A DNA stretch of 64,000 nucleotides from an uncultured Halobacteriovorax sp. (GTDB lineage: Bacteria; Bdellovibrionota; Bacteriovoracia; Bacteriovoracales; Bacteriovoracaceae), in the NCBI GenBank assembly GCA_913061265.1, contig CAJXVS010000002.1, forward strand, positions 1-64,000, written 5' to 3'. Of the stretch, positions 48,805-56,485 are shown piece by piece (position 1 is the first letter of the stretch; each line of letters opens with the position of its first letter). The notes beneath the pieces were generated by a model, which did not search any database, was not told the DNA's origin, and saw only the letters and a program-made list of their open reading frames with translations. The position numbers were made by a program, and so were the translations under genes.

Positions 48805-49446
48805 TTATTGGATAGGGTGGGCTGTTTTAACCGCTAAGTAATGAAAGTAGGTTCCGCCCATAACAAAGAGGTGCCAGATCATATGGTGAAAGGGAACCTT
48901 CTTCATGGCATAAAAGATGACACCAATTGAGTAGGAGAGCCCGCCGTAGATGATAAACTCAAGACTTCTCGCGGGAATAACGCTCTTCAGATCAGGGGCG
49001 ATAAAAAGAGCTGACCAACCCATGGAGAGATAGAAAAAGAGGGAGAGTTTGCGCCTTTCTTTTTTTCCAAAGATCTTGAAGATTATTCCCCCAAGGGCAA
49101 AGGACCAAATAAAGACACAGAACCAAAGACTCTTCTCAGTATTGAGATTAACCAATAAAAAGGGTGTAAGACTTCCGGCAATCAAAACAAAGATCGCCAT
49201 ATGATCAAGCTTCTTCATATAGAGCTTTCGTTTCTCAATCTTTTCAAAATGATAAAGTGTAGAACAAGTAAACATAGTAAGCATGGCCAAACCAAAGATG
49301 GCATAACTGATGACAGCGATGATTCCAAGGGGAGCGGCCTTCGTGCTTAAGCTAATCAAGACATACAGGGCAAAAAAAACACCTAAGAGGTGAGTGCCTG
49401 CATTTAGTTTTTCTTCAAGTGGTGAGTACTGAAAAGCTTTTTTCAT
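48805..49446 (-). CDS. Hemolysin III/PAQR family membrane protein
   Basis: A 213-residue seven-helix protein. Family motifs are EEKLNAGTHLLGVFFALY, CSTLYHF with the metal Ser/His/Asp set completed by LDHMAIFVLIAGSLTPF, and the C-terminal HHMIWHLFVMGGTYFHYLAV. PAQR-type proteins are predicted metal-dependent hydrolases; bacterial members such as YqfA/TrhA relate to membrane lipid state. It is divergent from the ABC1-domain lipoprotein gene across 194 bases. Confidence 0.92.
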   Translation of the reverse strand: MKKAFQYSPLEEKLNAGTHLLGVFFALYVLISLSTKAAPLGIIAVISYAIFGLAMLTMFTCSTLYHFEKIEKRKLYMKKLDHMAIFVLIAGSLTPFLLVNLNTEKSLWFCVFIWSFALGGIIFKIFGKKERRKLSLFFYLSMGWSALFIAPDLKSVIPARSLEFIIYGGLSYSIGVIFYAMKKVPFHHMIWHLFVMGGTYFHYLAVKTAHPIQ

Positions 49447-49640
49447 ATGTTGATTTTCCTATTTCTTAATCCTATAGAAGGATCAGGCTTATGGGAAAAA
49501 ACTAGAGTAAAGCTTACAGAACTGCTTAATATCACACATTATCTGAGGAAACAGGTCGGTTTCTTCCCGCACTAGATTCCTATGATTTCAGCACCATTTT
49601 CCGATAAGAGAAGAGTATGAAAACTTAAACTGGTGGGAAG

Positions 49641-52214
49641 TTGCAGGTTCGTTTATTTACCATATTTATTCTTTTAATTAGTTCATGTTCGATGAATCAG
49701 TGGAGTATTGGACCCTCAAGCAGAAGAGAGATTTCTTCCCGCGCTCCAGCCAGTAGTGTCAATGACCCTGCTCTCTATGCTCAGGCCCTGGCCTATATGG
49801 AAGAGAGAAGTATTAGCGTGGGCTGTTGTGGTGTAGGTGACTATGTCTCTGCTGCTAGGCAAATCAAAAATGTTCATCAACTAGAAGTTTTAAAGTTTTG
49901 GATGAGTATGGATGGGGGGCGCTATAGTTTACGCTCTTCTAGAGCTTCATGGTGGTTATCTATAAATGTAAGAAGTAGTAACCAGGCCATACTGGCTAAG
50001 AAGGCCATGCATCTTCCTGTCAAAAACTATTCCCATAATAAAGGAAATAGAGAAAGTATTATCGAAGCGTTTAAAGAGATAATCTTTTCTTCAAGTACTT
50101 GGGAGAGAGTCCAGTACACAGAGAAGCTTTTAAACGATGGCTTTGTTCCTTATAAGAGTAAAGAAATTCATGAAAAGATTGTGGGAGCCATTCAAGGTGA
50201 AGAAGGTCTCAGAATTGCTTTTGAATATTATGAAAAAGGAATTTCTTCTGAACTAAATGAACTGATCGAAGAATTAGGGAAAGTCGATGAAGCCGGTGGG
50301 CTTGAAGAGTTCAATAGGAAGATTAATCAATTAGATATAGCTCATGGCAAAAAAGAAAAACGTCTCGTTAATTTTTTCATGCATGAGGTCCCTAAAGAAG
50401 GTAAGCGAGAGGGGAAAATAGAGGGGAAGTTAGTCGATATTATAGAATCTTTTTCACCTTCAAAGTTAAGCCGAATTATGGATCCTCCAACCGATGGGGA
50501 AGGGCTTAGTCCAACAGAAAAATGGCTTGCCAAGAGGATGGCCATTTTTCAAGAGCAAGCTGGAAAGTCGTCAAAGCTCGGATTAAGCGAGAGCTTAGCT
50601 ATGAGGGATAAGATGAGATCTGGCGTTAGGCTGACAGATTCGGAGTATGACAAATTACGAAGTCTTGATAGCGACTCAGCATTTTCTAAAATTTTTTACA
50701 ACGCAGTTGTAAAAGAAAAAAAAGATGAGATATCTGAAATTGATAAGGCCGTAAAAAACTATTTAAACTCAAGCCAACTCAATATCACGCCAGAGCATTA
50801 TAATAAATTCTTCAATCAATTAATTCCTGCTTATGTAGAAGATCTTCCAACTAAAAATAAAGAAAGTATTCTTCACGACTTAATTAAAATTGGACCTGAA
50901 GCTACAGAGAAGCAACAGTTTGAGGCGGTCGTACAAAATAGTGGTCCTGAGTTTCAAAAGCTTTTGCAAATGCTCTCAAGACAAGATGGGTTAGGTGATG
51001 ACTTCGCCGACATCCTAAAAAAACTTGAATCCAATATTAAAGAAACCCCTTTCACAGAAGTTGAAAAATTCTTAATTCAAGAATTTGGCGAACTTTATCC
51101 AAGCCGACTTAAAATTTTAAATAAACATCCTCTAGGAGTAGGGACTATGGCCCAAACTTACAGAGGAGAGATGTTAAACGAAGCTAATATTTGGGAACCA
51201 GTTGCTGTTCGTGTTCTTAAGCCTGAAATAGAAGAGGCTGTTGAGACAGACTATAAGCTTTTACAAAAGCATGTCAGCGACATCGAAGTTATGCCAGAGA
51301 TGAGAGGAACTTTATTTGAGCATTTTGGAAATGTTCTTGAAAGGCTCCATAACACAATTCGAGGTGAGCTTAATACTGGAGAGACGGGGCTTAATCAAAT
51401 TTCTGGTTCAAAGTATTATGGGCCTAGGCCTCACTTAGGAGACTTAAGCGATATAAAATCAATCGTACCCTATACGCCAAAGGTTATCCACTCTGATAAT
51501 AATAAGTCAGGTCTTCTGATTCAAGAATTAGTTAACGGAGAGCCTTTTGAGATTTTTTTCAAAGTTAGACCAGCCGCGACTAAAGTTTCAGTTGTAGAAG
51601 ATATGGCCAAGTTATGGTTGCGAGAGGCCATCTTCATCTCGGGTTTTCATCACGCTGATCTTCATCAGGGAAATATGCTTTTTAAAGAACTAAATAATAA
51701 TAAAATCGAAGTTCAATTTTTAGATTATGGTATGGCCAAAACATTGAACAAGGACGAGCGTAAGGCACTTATTATGCTTGGAAAAGCTCTCAAGGATAAT
51801 AACCTTGAATCCGCCATAAAGATTACTACTTCAAGTATTATAGATTCAAAAAATACCGCGAGTATCAAAAGCATAGCGAGCGAATTCTTTTCTAGCCCCA
51901 ATAGAGAAGTTAAAGAGTTTTTGGAATTTCTCATTTCTAAAAATGTGTTAATCAAAGAAGAACTCGTAAGTTTTAATAGGGGATTATGGCTAATTTCTCA
52001 GCTTCTAGAGAATGCTAAATCATCGATTCTTATCGAAGACCTTCTAGAAGAGATGACAAAGGAGCTTGCAGGAATTGATGCTAAGAACAGGTTCAAGATC
52101 TTCAATAAGACTAAAGACTGGGTCGACCTGACTCCATTTTCTAAAAAAGAGCTTCTAAAACTTGGAAAAGAAAAAGCTGGAAGCTGCTCACAATTAATCA
52201 AAATGATGTTTTAA
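49641..52214 (+). CDS. Predicted lipoprotein with ABC1/UbiB-like kinase domain
   Basis: An 857-residue protein starting MQVRLFTIFILLISSCSMNQ, a lipoprotein signal with Cys16. Residues 17-420 are helical and of no known family. From about residue 435 the ABC1/UbiB/COQ8 domain can be followed: GPEFQKLLQML in place of IKxGQ (Lys440), GVGTMAQTYRG for the Ala-rich loop, VAVRVLKP with Arg524 where VAVKV has Lys, HHADLHQGNM (His671, Asp673), and FLDYGMA with Asp695. ABC1 kinases are normally cytoplasmic or matrix-facing; export would be unusual. The start is TTG at 49641 with GGTGGGAAG just upstream. Confidence 0.72.
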   Translation: MQVRLFTIFILLISSCSMNQWSIGPSSRREISSRAPASSVNDPALYAQALAYMEERSISVGCCGVGDYVSAARQIKNVHQLEVLKFWMSMDGGRYSLRSSRASWWLSINVRSSNQAILAKKAMHLPVKNYSHNKGNRESIIEAFKEIIFSSSTWERVQYTEKLLNDGFVPYKSKEIHEKIVGAIQGEEGLRIAFEYYEKGISSELNELIEELGKVDEAGGLEEFNRKINQLDIAHGKKEKRLVNFFMHEVPKEGKREGKIEGKLVDIIESFSPSKLSRIMDPPTDGEGLSPTEKWLAKRMAIFQEQAGKSSKLGLSESLAMRDKMRSGVRLTDSEYDKLRSLDSDSAFSKIFYNAVVKEKKDEISEIDKAVKNYLNSSQLNITPEHYNKFFNQLIPAYVEDLPTKNKESILHDLIKIGPEATEKQQFEAVVQNSGPEFQKLLQMLSRQDGLGDDFADILKKLESNIKETPFTEVEKFLIQEFGELYPSRLKILNKHPLGVGTMAQTYRGEMLNEANIWEPVAVRVLKPEIEEAVETDYKLLQKHVSDIEVMPEMRGTLFEHFGNVLERLHNTIRGELNTGETGLNQISGSKYYGPRPHLGDLSDIKSIVPYTPKVIHSDNNKSGLLIQELVNGEPFEIFFKVRPAATKVSVVEDMAKLWLREAIFISGFHHADLHQGNMLFKELNNNKIEVQFLDYGMAKTLNKDERKALIMLGKALKDNNLESAIKITTSSIIDSKNTASIKSIASEFFSSPNREVKEFLEFLISKNVLIKEELVSFNRGLWLISQLLENAKSSILIEDLLEEMTKELAGIDAKNRFKIFNKTKDWVDLTPFSKKELLKLGKEKAGSCSQLIKMMF

Positions 52215-52284
52215 ATTCTCCTTCCTTGTGACGCGTTGATCATTAATGGTCATTCTAAGAAGAGTAAAATAGAATCATAACTCG

Positions 52285-54228
52285 ATGAACGCTTTAAAAT
52301 ACCGACATGATGTGGATGGATTAAGGGCCATAGCGGTTCTCTCTGTCCTAATTTTTCATATATCTGAAAAGTTCCTCCCAAATGGATACTTGGGTGTGGA
52401 TATCTTTTTTGTTATCTCTGGATTCGTTGTTACCCGCTCATTATTGAATAAAGGAGACTTTGATAATGGCCTAATTTTCTTTACTAAGTTTATCTCTGCC
52501 CGAATCAAACGACTCTTCCCGGCCCTCTTTCTGATCTTGGTCTTTACCATTTTAATCACCGTGCTCTTTATTCCGGCCGTCGATAACCATCAAAGAGATT
52601 TCTTGAAAACCGGAAGGTACGCATTCTTTGGTTTCTCCAATATGTTTCTTCTAAAGTCGAGTACTGGCTACTTTGGAAACCTATCCGCCATCAATCCTTT
52701 TACCCATACCTGGTCTCTCGGCGTAGAAGAACAATTCTATCTTCTCTACTCCCTTCTTTTTACTTTCAGTTTAAGAGCAGGTTTTAAAAAAAACTTAAAC
52801 CGTTTTAAGTGGCTCCTCTTTATCTTAAGCTCAGCCTCACTCATCGGATTTCTATTCTATAGTCATGAAAATGTAGACTACGCCTTTTATTTGATGCCCC
52901 TTCGTTTTTGGGAACTGGGAATTGGCTGCCTTCTCAATTTCATCTCATTCAAAGCTGATAAGAAACAATCTCTTTTTGCTTGGATCTCTCTCATCTTGAT
53001 GGGATCTCTTTTTTTTATAGGACTCGATAAATCTTATACTCTCAATATTTTAGCAGTGCTTTCAACGGCAACGGCTATCCTTTGCGTCCCTAAGAATACT
53101 TTCTTACAGAACTTTCTTACAACCGCTCCCATGCAATACATAGGAAAACTTTCCTATTCTCTCTATCTTTGGCATTGGCCAATTTTAGTTTTCGCTAAAT
53201 GGAACCTGCCTTTTAACTTCATCACTATTATAAGCCTAGGCCTTATTATTTTTGCTCTCTCTCATTTAACTTTTCATCTTGTAGAGACACCTCTTCGAAA
53301 GAAAGCATGGGGAAAGAAAGATTTTCATACTGTTCTTATAGGCCTTCTTCTGATCGGAGTTTGTCTCGGAGGATTAGATTTAATGGTGAAGAACAGAAAG
53401 AAGCTCTACTTAGGGGATGGCTATAATATCAACACAATGAACTGCGAAAAAGTTGGCGCTGAATTCTTACTCATTGGTGATAGTCACGCTACTGCTTTGA
53501 ATCCTGGAGTCTATAGTGCAACTAAGGGCGATTGCCATTTCGGCCGTCAGCTCTATCTTTTCGGCTTCAACACTTCAAGCCTAACGGATAAGGTTCTAAA
53601 GAAGCCCCTCAGAACCGTTCTTTTTCAAGACCCGGAACCTCTCAAGAATTATATAAGAAACAATTCCCCAAAGAAGGTCGTCATCTCTCATTACCTAAAA
53701 ATGGCCTTCTCAGACCCGGCCCTTTCTCATAAGAGCAGTGATTGGTTAGTAGGGAATTATAAAACCCATGATGGGCAGGTCATTAATAATAGAGCAGAGG
53801 CCCTAGAGTATTTTACAAAAAGAATTGAAGACCTAGCAAAAACTTTTCCAAAGGTCTTATTCTCAATCATCCTCCCGCTTCCCGATTTTAACTGGGTAAG
53901 CGCAGGGGGCGTTCGCCAAGGCGCCTGTCAAAAAGAATGGTTCAGGCCTTATCCAAAAGAGCTCCCAAGATGCCAAAGCTTTCTTAAGCCAGCTTTAGAA
54001 AAAGTAAGCTCTATCAAAGAAGTTAATTCTAAAACCTATTCAAGTTTAGAGAAGCTCTCTAGTCGCTTCCCCAACATCTACCTCGCGAATCCTCTACCAA
54101 TCCTGTGCGAAGGAGAAACATGCTCAACTCAGATCAAAGGAGTTGGCGTCGCTTACAGAGACGATGATCATTTGAATGTGAACGGGGCGGTTTTTCTTAT
54201 GGAAGGGCTTGGGGATTTGTATAAATAA
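52285..54228 (+). CDS. OafA/YrhL-type acyltransferase with SGNH domain
   Basis: A 647-residue fusion. Residues 1-370 are the acyltransferase-3 membrane domain, beginning YRHDVDGLRAIAVLSVLIFH and GYLGVDIFFVISGFV, with HTWSLGVEEQFYLLY. A periplasmic SGNH domain follows with GDSHAT near residue 398 and DDDHLN near residue 632. This architecture O-acetylates surface polysaccharide, LPS or peptidoglycan: the membrane part passes acetyl groups to the SGNH part. The target glycan is unknown; the GT-C-like protein upstream may belong to the same surface system. Confidence 0.93.
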   Translation: MNALKYRHDVDGLRAIAVLSVLIFHISEKFLPNGYLGVDIFFVISGFVVTRSLLNKGDFDNGLIFFTKFISARIKRLFPALFLILVFTILITVLFIPAVDNHQRDFLKTGRYAFFGFSNMFLLKSSTGYFGNLSAINPFTHTWSLGVEEQFYLLYSLLFTFSLRAGFKKNLNRFKWLLFILSSASLIGFLFYSHENVDYAFYLMPLRFWELGIGCLLNFISFKADKKQSLFAWISLILMGSLFFIGLDKSYTLNILAVLSTATAILCVPKNTFLQNFLTTAPMQYIGKLSYSLYLWHWPILVFAKWNLPFNFITIISLGLIIFALSHLTFHLVETPLRKKAWGKKDFHTVLIGLLLIGVCLGGLDLMVKNRKKLYLGDGYNINTMNCEKVGAEFLLIGDSHATALNPGVYSATKGDCHFGRQLYLFGFNTSSLTDKVLKKPLRTVLFQDPEPLKNYIRNNSPKKVVISHYLKMAFSDPALSHKSSDWLVGNYKTHDGQVINNRAEALEYFTKRIEDLAKTFPKVLFSIILPLPDFNWVSAGGVRQGACQKEWFRPYPKELPRCQSFLKPALEKVSSIKEVNSKTYSSLEKLSSRFPNIYLANPLPILCEGETCSTQIKGVGVAYRDDDHLNVNGAVFLMEGLGDLYK

Positions 54229-54239
54229 AAATGTGAGTG

Positions 54240-55007
54240 CTACTCTTCTACGACGATCAAAGACCACATCTTTTTTGAGCCCTTAGCATTTTTAATCCTA
54301 AGCGAATTCTTGTTATCAAAGTACTCTTGGCCAGAGTCTCGAATGAATTTATTAGCGGTCTCTAAGCTCTTACACTTTAAAATAATATTCTTAAAATAAT
54401 TAACTGAACCTTTTTTTATAAAGAGGTAGGTGCCATCACTAAGTCTTGTCTTTTCTTTGAGTTTTTTTCCAAGAAGAGTTTCTAAATAAAGATGTGCCTT
54501 ATCAGTCAAGACTAGATCAAGACCATAGATACCATAAACAGTGTTTGCATGTTTAGGAGCCAGCTTTGCTTTCTTCTTCCTAGAAGAATGTTCTTCATAC
54601 TCAGTAAACCAAGTATAGATGTTTCTCATGGGCGGGTTTAAAAGAGTGATCATATTCCAGCCAGGGAGCTTATCTGTGCTGTTCTTTTTCCAGTCGTAGT
54701 TCTTATGAAAAAAATGAGCTTTTAGTTTCTTAGAAATCTTCTTATAAAAGCTCTCAAGGTTTTCTTTATAGCCAAGAGATAATCCCGCAGCGTTGAAAGA
54801 CTTCCCACCTTTACCTACCCTGACAAATTCTAAATAAGCCTTTCCGCGATTAGTATTTCCCTCTAATTCAATAAAGCGGCAATGGGCCTTGCCTGGATGC
54901 TCAACTTTCATATCACTTAAGGTAAAACCAAGCTTTCCGAGTCTTTTAAAAAAATGGTGGTTAGGGTCTTCGTTGAATGCGTGGTCGAAAAAAATCTTTT
55001 TGAACAT
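54240..55007 (-). CDS. VOC/glyoxalase-like domain protein
   Basis: A 255-residue protein. The start FFDHAFNEDPNHHFF followed by LGFTLSDMKVEHPGKAHCRFIEL and AYLEFVRV resembles the glyoxalase-like PF13468 group, with His and Glu as possible metal ligands; a second half from residue about 150 (YGIYGLDLVL) may repeat the fold. The reaction is unknown. The ATG at 55007 is chosen because it starts the first strand; no good ribosome binding site is seen. Before the tRNA-Glu insertion this gene would have lain directly after the tRNA terminator. Confidence 0.62.
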   Translation of the reverse strand: MFKKIFFDHAFNEDPNHHFFKRLGKLGFTLSDMKVEHPGKAHCRFIELEGNTNRGKAYLEFVRVGKGGKSFNAAGLSLGYKENLESFYKKISKKLKAHFFHKNYDWKKNSTDKLPGWNMITLLNPPMRNIYTWFTEYEEHSSRKKKAKLAPKHANTVYGIYGLDLVLTDKAHLYLETLLGKKLKEKTRLSDGTYLFIKKGSVNYFKNIILKCKSLETANKFIRDSGQEYFDNKNSLRIKNAKGSKKMWSLIVVEE

Positions 55008-55023
55008 GAAATGATTATAACCG

Positions 55024-55086
55024 AAGGCAAAAAAAAAGCCCCACAAACGTGAGGCTTTATTTTAAATTGGTACTCCCAAGGGGATT
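55024..55086. repeat. 63-bp repeat, distal copy (attachment-site duplication)
   Basis: Identical over all 63 bases to 56364-56426. It contains the terminator hairpin (55035-55058) and, at 55068-55086, the last 19 bases of tRNA-Glu including CCA. The rest of the tRNA is missing here. The two copies bound 1.28 kb of unrelated sequence, as left by site-specific integration into the 3' end of a tRNA gene. Confidence 0.9.
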
Positions 55087-55160
55087 ATCAGCAACAGATT
55101 ACTAACCATCCAGAACTATTAGCTTTTTCAGGAATATCAACAGTTTGCCCCTGTTTTCGT

Positions 55161-55222
55161 TTCATCTCAGTTCATCATATTTCATCTGATTTCAGGTGTG
55201 GCCGTGAGCAAAGTGTGAGCAA
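55161..55222. repeat. 10-bp phased TTCATC repeats and GTGAGCAA pair at element end
   Basis: TTCATC occurs at 55161, 55171 and 55181 and TTCA again at 55191, exactly one helical turn apart. GTGAGCAA occurs at 55204 and 55215. They lie 75-135 bases inside the element boundary, where tyrosine recombinase arm sites or excisionase sites are usually found. No integrase gene remains. The rest of 55087-55285 has no gene I can support. Confidence 0.5.
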
Positions 55223-55285
55223 CTAGTAGATATGAAGTTGATGATTAGTTGCTAACACTCTTCGATAAAGGACATTGTTAGGGAA

Positions 55286-55921
55286 TTATCTTAAACTTGA
55301 TATATATGTTTCAATGTCATTTAAAAGTTTCCTTAACTGGCGAAGTTGTAGATTATGTGTCTTTATGGGCTCAGGTATTTCGGTTTCGATAGTTTCTAGT
55401 AAGTTTATAAATGATCTCAATTTACTAGAGTACTTCAAGTAACAAAAATTAATCATAGGAACTTTATCGTCTAAGTCATATTCCTTTAAAAGATCTAAGA
55501 AGTATGAGAAATGAAAAATAAAGGTGATAATTAAGTTAAAATTGAAAATGAAACCTTTAGGGTCAAGTTTTGCTGCATAAGCTAGTCTTTGTATAGCAAG
55601 TTCGCCCTCATAGGTTTTAGTAATTCCATTCCGGTCTCTGAACGAAATAGTTGTACTCTTCGTAATTTCGTAAATTTCCCGATTGATCAAATCAATTTTG
55701 CTTCTTATTCTGTTTTCAGAATTGATTTGGTTTTGTTCATATATAGTAAAGGAGGCAATTAGTAATGATATAAAGGCTGCAAGCCCTGAAACAATGGTAG
55801 CGGCTTCGACGAAACTCAAGCTATTTTGAGAGTAGGCTATCCCAAGGAAAAGAGTCATTAGAAATATACTGAGGAATGCCACTGTTGTTAGATCTTTTGA
55901 ACTTAGGCGTATTTTATTCAT
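55286..55921 (-). CDS. Membrane protein carried by the tRNA-Glu element
   Basis: A 211-residue protein with two adjacent N-terminal transmembrane helices (TTVAFLSIFLMTLFLGIAY and EAATIVSGLAAFISLLIASF) followed by a cytoplasmic helical domain of about 140 residues. This layout resembles putative phage abortive-infection membrane proteins, but the similarity is by general form only and no family is claimed. The ATG at 55921 is supported by GGAG at 55930-55933, 8 bases upstream; an ATG at 55969 is in frame. Codon use looks more AT-rich than the neighbours. It is the only sizeable gene inside the repeat-bounded element. Confidence 0.62.
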   Translation of the reverse strand: MNKIRLSSKDLTTVAFLSIFLMTLFLGIAYSQNSLSFVEAATIVSGLAAFISLLIASFTIYEQNQINSENRIRSKIDLINREIYEITKSTTISFRDRNGITKTYEGELAIQRLAYAAKLDPKGFIFNFNLIITFIFHFSYFLDLLKEYDLDDKVPMINFCYLKYSSKLRSFINLLETIETEIPEPIKTHNLQLRQLRKLLNDIETYISSLR

Positions 55922-56000
55922 CGATAAATCTCCAATTCTCAATAAATTTCTTATGAAATATTCTACCATGCAATATCGTTTATTGAGGTAGAATTAGTTT

Positions 56001-56087
56001 ATGGAAGTGAAATTACTTAAATTTTGGCAAGCAGGTGTTTCAAGCTCCGAAGTAGGAGAAGCTGTCTCTAAAGTAGCTGATGAATAA
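56001..56087 (+). CDS. Possible 28-codon ORF in the element
   Basis: ATG at 56001 preceded by GAGGTAG, 28 codons ending SKVADE, stop at 56085-56087, then a hairpin (56089-56110). It might be a remnant of a small DNA-binding protein or not coding at all. The rest of 55970-56407 holds hairpins and repeats only. Confidence 0.25.
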   Translation: MEVKLLKFWQAGVSSSEVGEAVSKVADE

Positions 56088-56088
56088 A

Positions 56089-56110
56089 AAAAGGGTACGT
56101 GATACCTTTT
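56089..56110 (+). terminator. Weak hairpin after the small ORF
   Basis: AAAAGGGTA and TACCTTTT pair with one bulged G around CGTGA. It could be a weak bidirectional terminator. The AAAAAAGGGTAC part recurs at 56346-56357. Confidence 0.3.
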
Positions 56111-56226
56111 CAAAAGAAGACCACTCAAAGGTGAAAAACATTAAGTAAAATGCGATGAATAAGTGCATTTAAGAGTTGGGTTAAATATATTCTCAGAAAA
56201 ATCAGTTCAGAATTGGATTGAAGTTT

Positions 56227-56274
56227 CTGGTGTGGGGGCTTTCCCTGCAAGTTAAGCCAATTCCACCACACCAG
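56227..56274. other. Two-stage inverted repeat (possible structured RNA or site)
   Basis: CTGGTGTGG (56227-56235) and CCACACCAG (56266-56274) are exact inverted copies enclosing GGCTT (56237-56241) and AAGCC (56254-56258). Together they would form a long stem with an internal loop. It is within the tRNA-Glu element; function unknown. Confidence 0.4.
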
Positions 56275-56338
56275 TTTCTTAATTATAGTTCATAAAATAT
56301 TTGAAACTCAATGGCTTTTTCGTTTTAGCAAGTGACCA

Positions 56339-56366
56339 GGTACCTAAAAAAGGGTACCTAAAAAAG
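56339..56366. repeat. Two tandem copies of a 14-bp unit with GGTACC
   Basis: GGTACCTAAAAAAG is repeated exactly at 56339-56352 and 56353-56366, abutting the attachment repeat. The preceding GTGACCA makes it look like a partial REP-type palindrome. Confidence 0.7.
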
Positions 56367-56426
56367 GCAAAAAAAAAGCCCCACAAACGTGAGGCTTTAT
56401 TTTAAATTGGTACTCCCAAGGGGATT
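56364..56426. repeat. 63-bp repeat, tRNA-proximal copy (attachment-site duplication)
   Basis: Identical to 55024-55086. This copy is continuous with the intact tRNA-Glu gene; identity stops at 56427 inside the T-arm. Confidence 0.9.
56369..56398 (-). terminator. Terminator of the tRNA-Lys/tRNA-Glu operon
   Basis: On the minus strand AAAGCCTCAC, GTTT loop, GTGGGGCTTT (one G.U) forms a 10-bp stem followed by nine T (56377-56369), ten bases after the tRNA CCA. Confidence 0.92.
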
Positions 56427-56485
56427 CGAACCCCTGTTACCGCCGTGAAAAGGCGGTGTCCTAGACCAGGCTAGACGATGGGAGC
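56408..56485 (-). tRNA. tRNA-Glu (anticodon TTC)
   Basis: A 78-nt tRNA. Acceptor GCTCCCA/TGGGAGT, anticodon stem CCGCC/GGCGG enclosing TTTTCAC gives anticodon TTC, T-arm AGGGGTTCGAATCCCCT, CCA encoded. It is the target of the integration event described at 55024-56426 and remains intact. Confidence 0.96.

Follow-up and report, generated by a model that had tools for sequence, protein, structure and literature searches.

An integrase-less one-gene insert at tRNA-Glu of an uncultured Halobacteriovorax sp. and its place in a family of tRNA-Glu-specific elements

We describe a short insert, bounded by an exact repeat, at the 3' end of a tRNA-Glu gene in a 64,000-nucleotide stretch of an uncultured Halobacteriovorax sp. 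genome (contig CAJXVS010000002.1, positions 1 to 64,000, hereafter the window). The insert belongs to a family of tRNA-Glu-specific elements in Bacteriovoracaceae/Halobacteriovoraceae, and on balance we favour the view that it is a one-gene module lacking an integrase, for whose insertion a helper would have supplied the integrase in trans. In this manner an apparently trivial scar is explained as a member of a recurrent class, i.e. integrase-less modules that are stacked at one tRNA gene.

Attachment sites and target gene

The repeat search found exactly two copies of a 63-nt direct repeat in the window, 100% identical and spaced 1,340 bp apart. The first copy (55024..55086) is the distal attachment site, containing a terminator and the core GGTACTCCCAAGGGG (55069-55083), and the second copy (56364..56426) is the tRNA-side attachment site, made up of the terminator and the 3' end of tRNA-Glu. 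The target gene, an intact tRNA-Glu(UUC) on the minus strand, was placed by ARAGORN at 56408..56485 and is adjoined by a tRNA-Lys gene. The right copy of the repeat runs into this intact gene, whereas of the tRNA the left copy retains just the final 19 bases, together with the terminator. The preliminary description of this DNA had reported both an insert of about 1.34 kb bounded by an exact repeat and the unequal continuation of the two copies, and both points are confirmed by the repeat search and the ARAGORN placement.

The core TTGGTACTCCCAAGGGG has only two sites in the 64 kb at 0 mismatches, both within the 63-bp copies, while about 0.1 matches would be expected by chance at up to 3 mismatches. 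The core is invariant or nearly so across the 16 distal ends included in the element comparison. A second attachment site further left in the 64-kb window was looked for with the core and none was found.

The distal arm is shared with elements in other genera

The distal attachment arm, about 155 bp counted from the core (55069..55223, plus strand), is common to modules in other genera. It contains four TTTCAT-type repeats with a spacing of 10 bp (at 55160, 55170, 55180 and 55190; 55160..55195, plus strand), which are putative binding sites for the recombinase or an accessory protein, and a GTGAGCA / GTGTGAGCA pair that constitutes the type-specific arm motif (55204..55221, plus strand). The TTTCAT array has the best score in the window on either strand, and the repeat pattern occurs a single time in the organism's own genome. 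In several other genera of the family, elements at the same tRNA have this layout too, TTTCAT repeats followed by the GTGAGCA pair, with a similar spacing from the core.

Compared with the distal ends of nine modules from three relatives (G067, G115 and G116), the window arm shows 71-79% identity over 155-163 bp, and the matches stop where the differing cargo starts. The identity to the integrase-bearing relative G021 is 75% over 197 bp, with the GTGAGCA motif in both and no proximal copy of it in the window. A scan of the genome collection with the arm pattern returned mostly simple-repeat matches, plus three Bacteriovoracaceae/Halobacteriovoraceae records. Since the distal arm is shared with elements elsewhere and is single in its own genome, the insert is best seen as the product of a recombinase, and a local duplication is unlikely.

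Cognate integrases in relatives and in the own genome

Tyrosine recombinases of one family are located just 3' of tRNA-Glu in nine relatives (G012, G013, G016, G017, G019, G021, G024, G112 and G114). These proteins (PF00589) are about 400 aa long, the members read at full length having 388-451 aa, and in both elements that were checked by Pfam the integrase is preceded by an HTH_17 gene. Members of the family also adjoin other tRNA genes elsewhere. The earlier reading of the repeat as a signature of tyrosine-recombinase integration is thus borne out, as the same core, the distal arm and a cognate integrase are found by the same tRNA in several relatives.

A type-specific motif pair is present at both ends of the integrase-bearing elements. 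The end motifs match better within than between these elements (6 elements, permutation p = 0.003), the same test gives p = 0.001 for all 23 sets of ends and p = 0.055, just short of significance, for the integrase-less modules alone, and all three values come from a simple best-14-mer score devised here and from modules that, where related, are not independent.

No integrase was found in the insert with the integrases of three relatives as queries (E <= 10). The only match to the family in the own genome is a 113-aa C-terminal fragment at a different site (C1:551.7 kb), where arm repeats are followed by the fragment within about 200 bp (G000:C1:551.5-552.0 kb, L100:6517-7035). This locus at about 551.5 kb looks like a true deletion remnant, left by a second, decayed element. 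As the genome is 99.75% complete and holds only this fragment, we conclude that it has no intact helper. Searching for an integrase elsewhere, as had been proposed for this locus, revealed the cognate family at tRNA-Glu in relatives, the own genome yielding the 113-aa fragment only. Viral contigs did not yield the family and so lend no support to a phage helper.

Integrase-less modules are common at tRNA-Glu

Modules that are bounded by attachment sites and have no integrase are common at tRNA-Glu in the relatives, with sizes of 0.7-6.6 kb. Two genomes have arrays of them between the tRNA and the chromosome: G067 contains four head-to-tail modules (1,544, 3,625, 1,922 and 1,548 bp) and G115 contains six (1,442, 2,327, 704, 1,931, 1,165 and 3,056 bp). 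These modules gave no match to the integrase family, and Pfam, applied to nearly all of their ORFs with 90 aa or more, detected no recombinase domain, the G067 acetyltransferase being judged via its G115 homologue. Among their cargo the arrays carry acetyltransferase genes, a globin gene accompanied by an Rrf2 regulator, and genes for a sensor kinase, a sigma-factor-like protein and a hydrolase. Single inserts without an integrase are also present in G035, G116, G121, G152, G153 and L131, Pfam having covered part of the genes in the first three.

The relationships between modules are informative with regard to their mobility. Two adjacent modules of G067 have 155-bp arms that are 99.4% identical and cargo that is unrelated. 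Between G067 and G115, the four-fold sites of module C are 87.4% identical, while the core gene next to it reaches 42.1%. Similarly, a module of 1.9 kb that carries BrnT/BrnA and two further genes has four-fold-site identities of 50-86% between L131 and G152, as against 33-35% for neighbouring core genes, and its left flanks differ between the two. That the cargo of these modules is more alike than the core genes points to a transfer later than the split of the species. Judging from these sequence comparisons, two module types appear to have moved horizontally without an integrase of their own. The modules may also have been transferred by homologous recombination on the conserved tRNA side, or they may have travelled along with a neighbouring element.

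The cargo gene

The sole credible gene of the insert is a 227-aa orphan ORF on the minus strand (55286..55969). Its probable start is the ATG at 55921, which has a GGAGA ribosome-binding site ahead of it and gives a protein of 211 aa. As read from the sequence, the product has two apparent N-terminal membrane segments followed by a helical part, so it would be an orphan membrane protein. The codon score of the ORF is positive, yet lower than that of host genes. Nothing credible was found for the protein in Pfam, PADLOC, NCBIfam, GTDB contigs, IMG/VR, phages or plasmids, and the gene is absent among the 96 genomes of relatives that were searched. A single-sequence structure model had a mean pLDDT of 49 and was set aside. 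On the insert, every Rfam match was under the curated score of its family. The DNA between the 63-bp copies is essentially single copy, dispersed repeats apart. With one credible ORF and no integrase found, the content of the insert is as the preliminary description had stated.

The tRNA-side end and the origin of the insert

We propose that a circular module with core and arms would have been inserted at the 3' end of tRNA-Glu by a tyrosine recombinase acting in trans. A crossover presumably inside the shared core would restore the tRNA, and the 3' end that was displaced would come to lie, with the terminator, on the distal side. By arm sequence, the closest candidate for the helper is a G021-type integrase with its HTH_17 partner, and the window module itself would never have carried an integrase.

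The insert has both cores and the distal arm, while no proximal arm motif could be located: the best candidate for GTGAGCA at the tRNA-side end matches in 7/9 bases. An exact proximal copy is present in three other modules of the window's arm type, and the remainder are without it. At the place of the arm motif in complete modules, the window has a dispersed repeat (56220..56350) consisting of a hairpin CTGGTGTGG..CCACACCAG and GCAAGTGACCAGGTACCT, which occupies the tRNA-side end. Another dispersed-repeat copy of the own genome, of the GGTACGTGATACC type, was located at 56074..56110. The sequence AAGTRACCAGGTACC has 27 exact copies in the own genome (G000) and 0 in the control; this repeat is of a genus type, frequently occurs in pairs or after a hairpin (CTGGTGTGG..CCACACCAG) whose loop varies, and similar copies are found in G001. 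Separately, a repeat of about 230 bp occurs in modules that lack the arm motif, in G115 (L210: 4567, 8580, 12380), G116 and module B of G067, mostly near the tRNA-side end like the dispersed repeat of the window.

A decayed state would also fit the insert, because the tRNA-side GTGAGCA motif is missing and host dispersed repeats are there instead. The strongest rival of the proposed insertion in trans, which we consider less likely, is a deletion remnant. A full element would have lost its tRNA-side part, i.e. integrase, HTH_17 gene and proximal arm, the gap being colonised later by dispersed repeats, with one cargo gene and the distal arm left over. Clear cases of this kind do exist. The remnants in G008 and G133b have kept C-terminal pieces of the integrase near the tRNA-side end, and the own genome has the locus at C1:551.5 kb. 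However, unlike these recognised remnants, the insert has no trace of an integrase at E <= 10, the exact 63-bp repeat does not suggest a long decay, and nine other modules of the same arm type gave no match to the integrase family. In the favoured reading, the inserted satellite would have suffered damage at its tRNA-side end at a later time. The window module is probably stranded now, with no intact helper in the genome and the tRNA-side arm motif gone.

The preliminary description had left the choice between remnant and satellite open. The satellite is now supported by the integrase-less arrays of the relatives and by the transfer of two modules, and the remnant keeps the lower probability given above. 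The same description took the exact repeat as a sign of a recent event. A recent insertion is plausible and the repeat is consistent with it, but the argument is weakened by G133b, in which an identical core and terminator stand between two cores, by the resemblance of both window copies to the G001 terminator, and by the dispersed repeats at the tRNA-side end.

A further possibility, which we regard as highly improbable, is that the distal attachment site and arm stem from an older and larger island, the DNA in between being mostly native chromosome with a native gene. The roughly 290 bp on the tRNA side that contain host dispersed repeats, the native look of the tRNA-side terminator and the similarity of the left-flank gene to element cargo would agree with such an origin; in the integrase-bearing relatives, however, the element is invariably flanked by the distal core/arm on one side and the tRNA on the other, as the 1.34 kb is here, and the gene is missing from the relatives searched and has a codon score under that of host genes. 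Scarcely credible, finally, is a local tandem duplication of the tRNA-Glu 3' end without any recombinase, which had been named as a result that would overturn the integration view: both window copies have the same terminator, resembling that of G001 to which it is homologous, and duplicated tRNA-Glu genes are found in G004 and G011, but beside the distal copy stands a conserved arm that recurs at this position in the elements of many relatives and has one occurrence in the own genome, and what lies between the copies is, dispersed repeats aside, essentially single copy.

Comparison with known systems

It is instructive to compare the insert with other integrated elements. Like Islander-type tRNA islands of tyrosine recombinases (PMC4383910), it lies at a tRNA 3' end, with the tRNA restored, a displaced fragment at the far end and a direct repeat of the tRNA 3' end at both sides, but it has no integrase gene, cognate or otherwise, inside. 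CIMEs have lost their integration and transfer genes, have kept attL and attR, and undergo accretion with ICEs or IMEs (PMC5704250). The modules described here resemble CIMEs and tandem accretion of the ICESt1 type in Streptococcus in that recombination and transfer genes are missing (as in the window insert), the units stand in tandem at one site and attachment sites are kept, the window insert having both cores and the distal arm. On the other hand, CIMEs have been characterised as ICEs or IMEs that have decayed, whereas the modules at tRNA-Glu often have just one or two genes, form arrays of up to six and, in two types, have evidence of horizontal transfer with no integrase of their own. 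As for an origin by decay, the insert contains no integrase relics and larger integrase-bearing elements are present in relatives.

The ssrA islands of Dehalococcoides are likewise arranged in tandem at one RNA gene and bounded by short repeats of its 3' end; 15 of them are without an integration module and were suggested to be cis-mobilizable (PMC3146451). They differ in that a CcrB-like serine recombinase and tmRNA are involved there, whereas here the recombinases are tyrosine recombinases of one family, the target is tRNA-Glu and the ends have paired arm motifs. A Halobacteriovorax marinus genome comparison reports a mobile-element hot spot, with no modules of this kind in the passages searched (PMC5760749). 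Overall, the window module is probably a CIME-like, trans-mobilised member of a recurrent family.

Integron cassettes are small gene units without an integrase that form arrays, with a tyrosine recombinase acting on them in trans. The outline is alike, but the core at tRNA-Glu is tRNA sequence with flanking arms, and no integron integrase was identified. We tentatively speculate, at somewhat less than even chances, that Bacteriovoracaceae maintain an integron-like gene collection in which type-specific helper recombinases line up cassettes at tRNA-Glu, the cassettes spreading between species as satellites. Each cassette might then consist of an arm, one or two genes, a terminator and the tRNA core, and helpers might recognise the paired terminal motifs, a notion that we hold just as tentatively. 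If the modules are indeed moved in trans, predatory bacteria would have a cassette-like way of acquiring single genes outside integrons, the acquired genes being an apparent orphan membrane protein here and an acetyltransferase, toxin-antitoxin, globin or sensor kinase elsewhere. The arm motifs would then predict which integrase serves which module, and through them the spread and persistence of units without recombination genes would become directly testable.

Flanking DNA and related loci

The gene on the left flank (54240..55010, minus strand, 256 aa) has a homologue with about 35% identity among the cargo that the integrase-bearing tRNA-Glu element carries in G017. Because of this resemblance, the gene could be part of an older insertion on the left. 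A 268-aa version of the ORF enters the repeat only through a mechanical TTG start, and translation more likely begins at the ATG near 55010.

In G001, which belongs to the same genus, no distal end was found within 17 kb of the locus, so that G001 provides no clean empty site. The comparison of the tRNA-Glu locus among relatives, suggested earlier as a check, thus revealed larger integrase-bearing insertions but no clean empty site in the genus. Between the window (49446-56408) and G001, the interval from the haemolysin III gene to tRNA-Glu is unrelated, a variable region of about 6-7 kb.

Other arrangements were seen at or near tRNA-Glu in further genomes. In G024, two core-plus-arm ends lie 3.2 kb apart and about 60 kb from tRNA-Glu (G024:C6:307281-310611, L168), suggesting a very long accretion island. 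In G004, the tRNA-Glu gene is present in two complete copies, separated by 985 bp in which a cation-efflux-like gene lies (L046, 3016-4085). In G011, two tRNA-Glu copies are 12.6 kb apart (L043, 2757-15565), each with a partial core about 184 bp upstream; this pair is without TTTCAT arms and is probably of a different origin.
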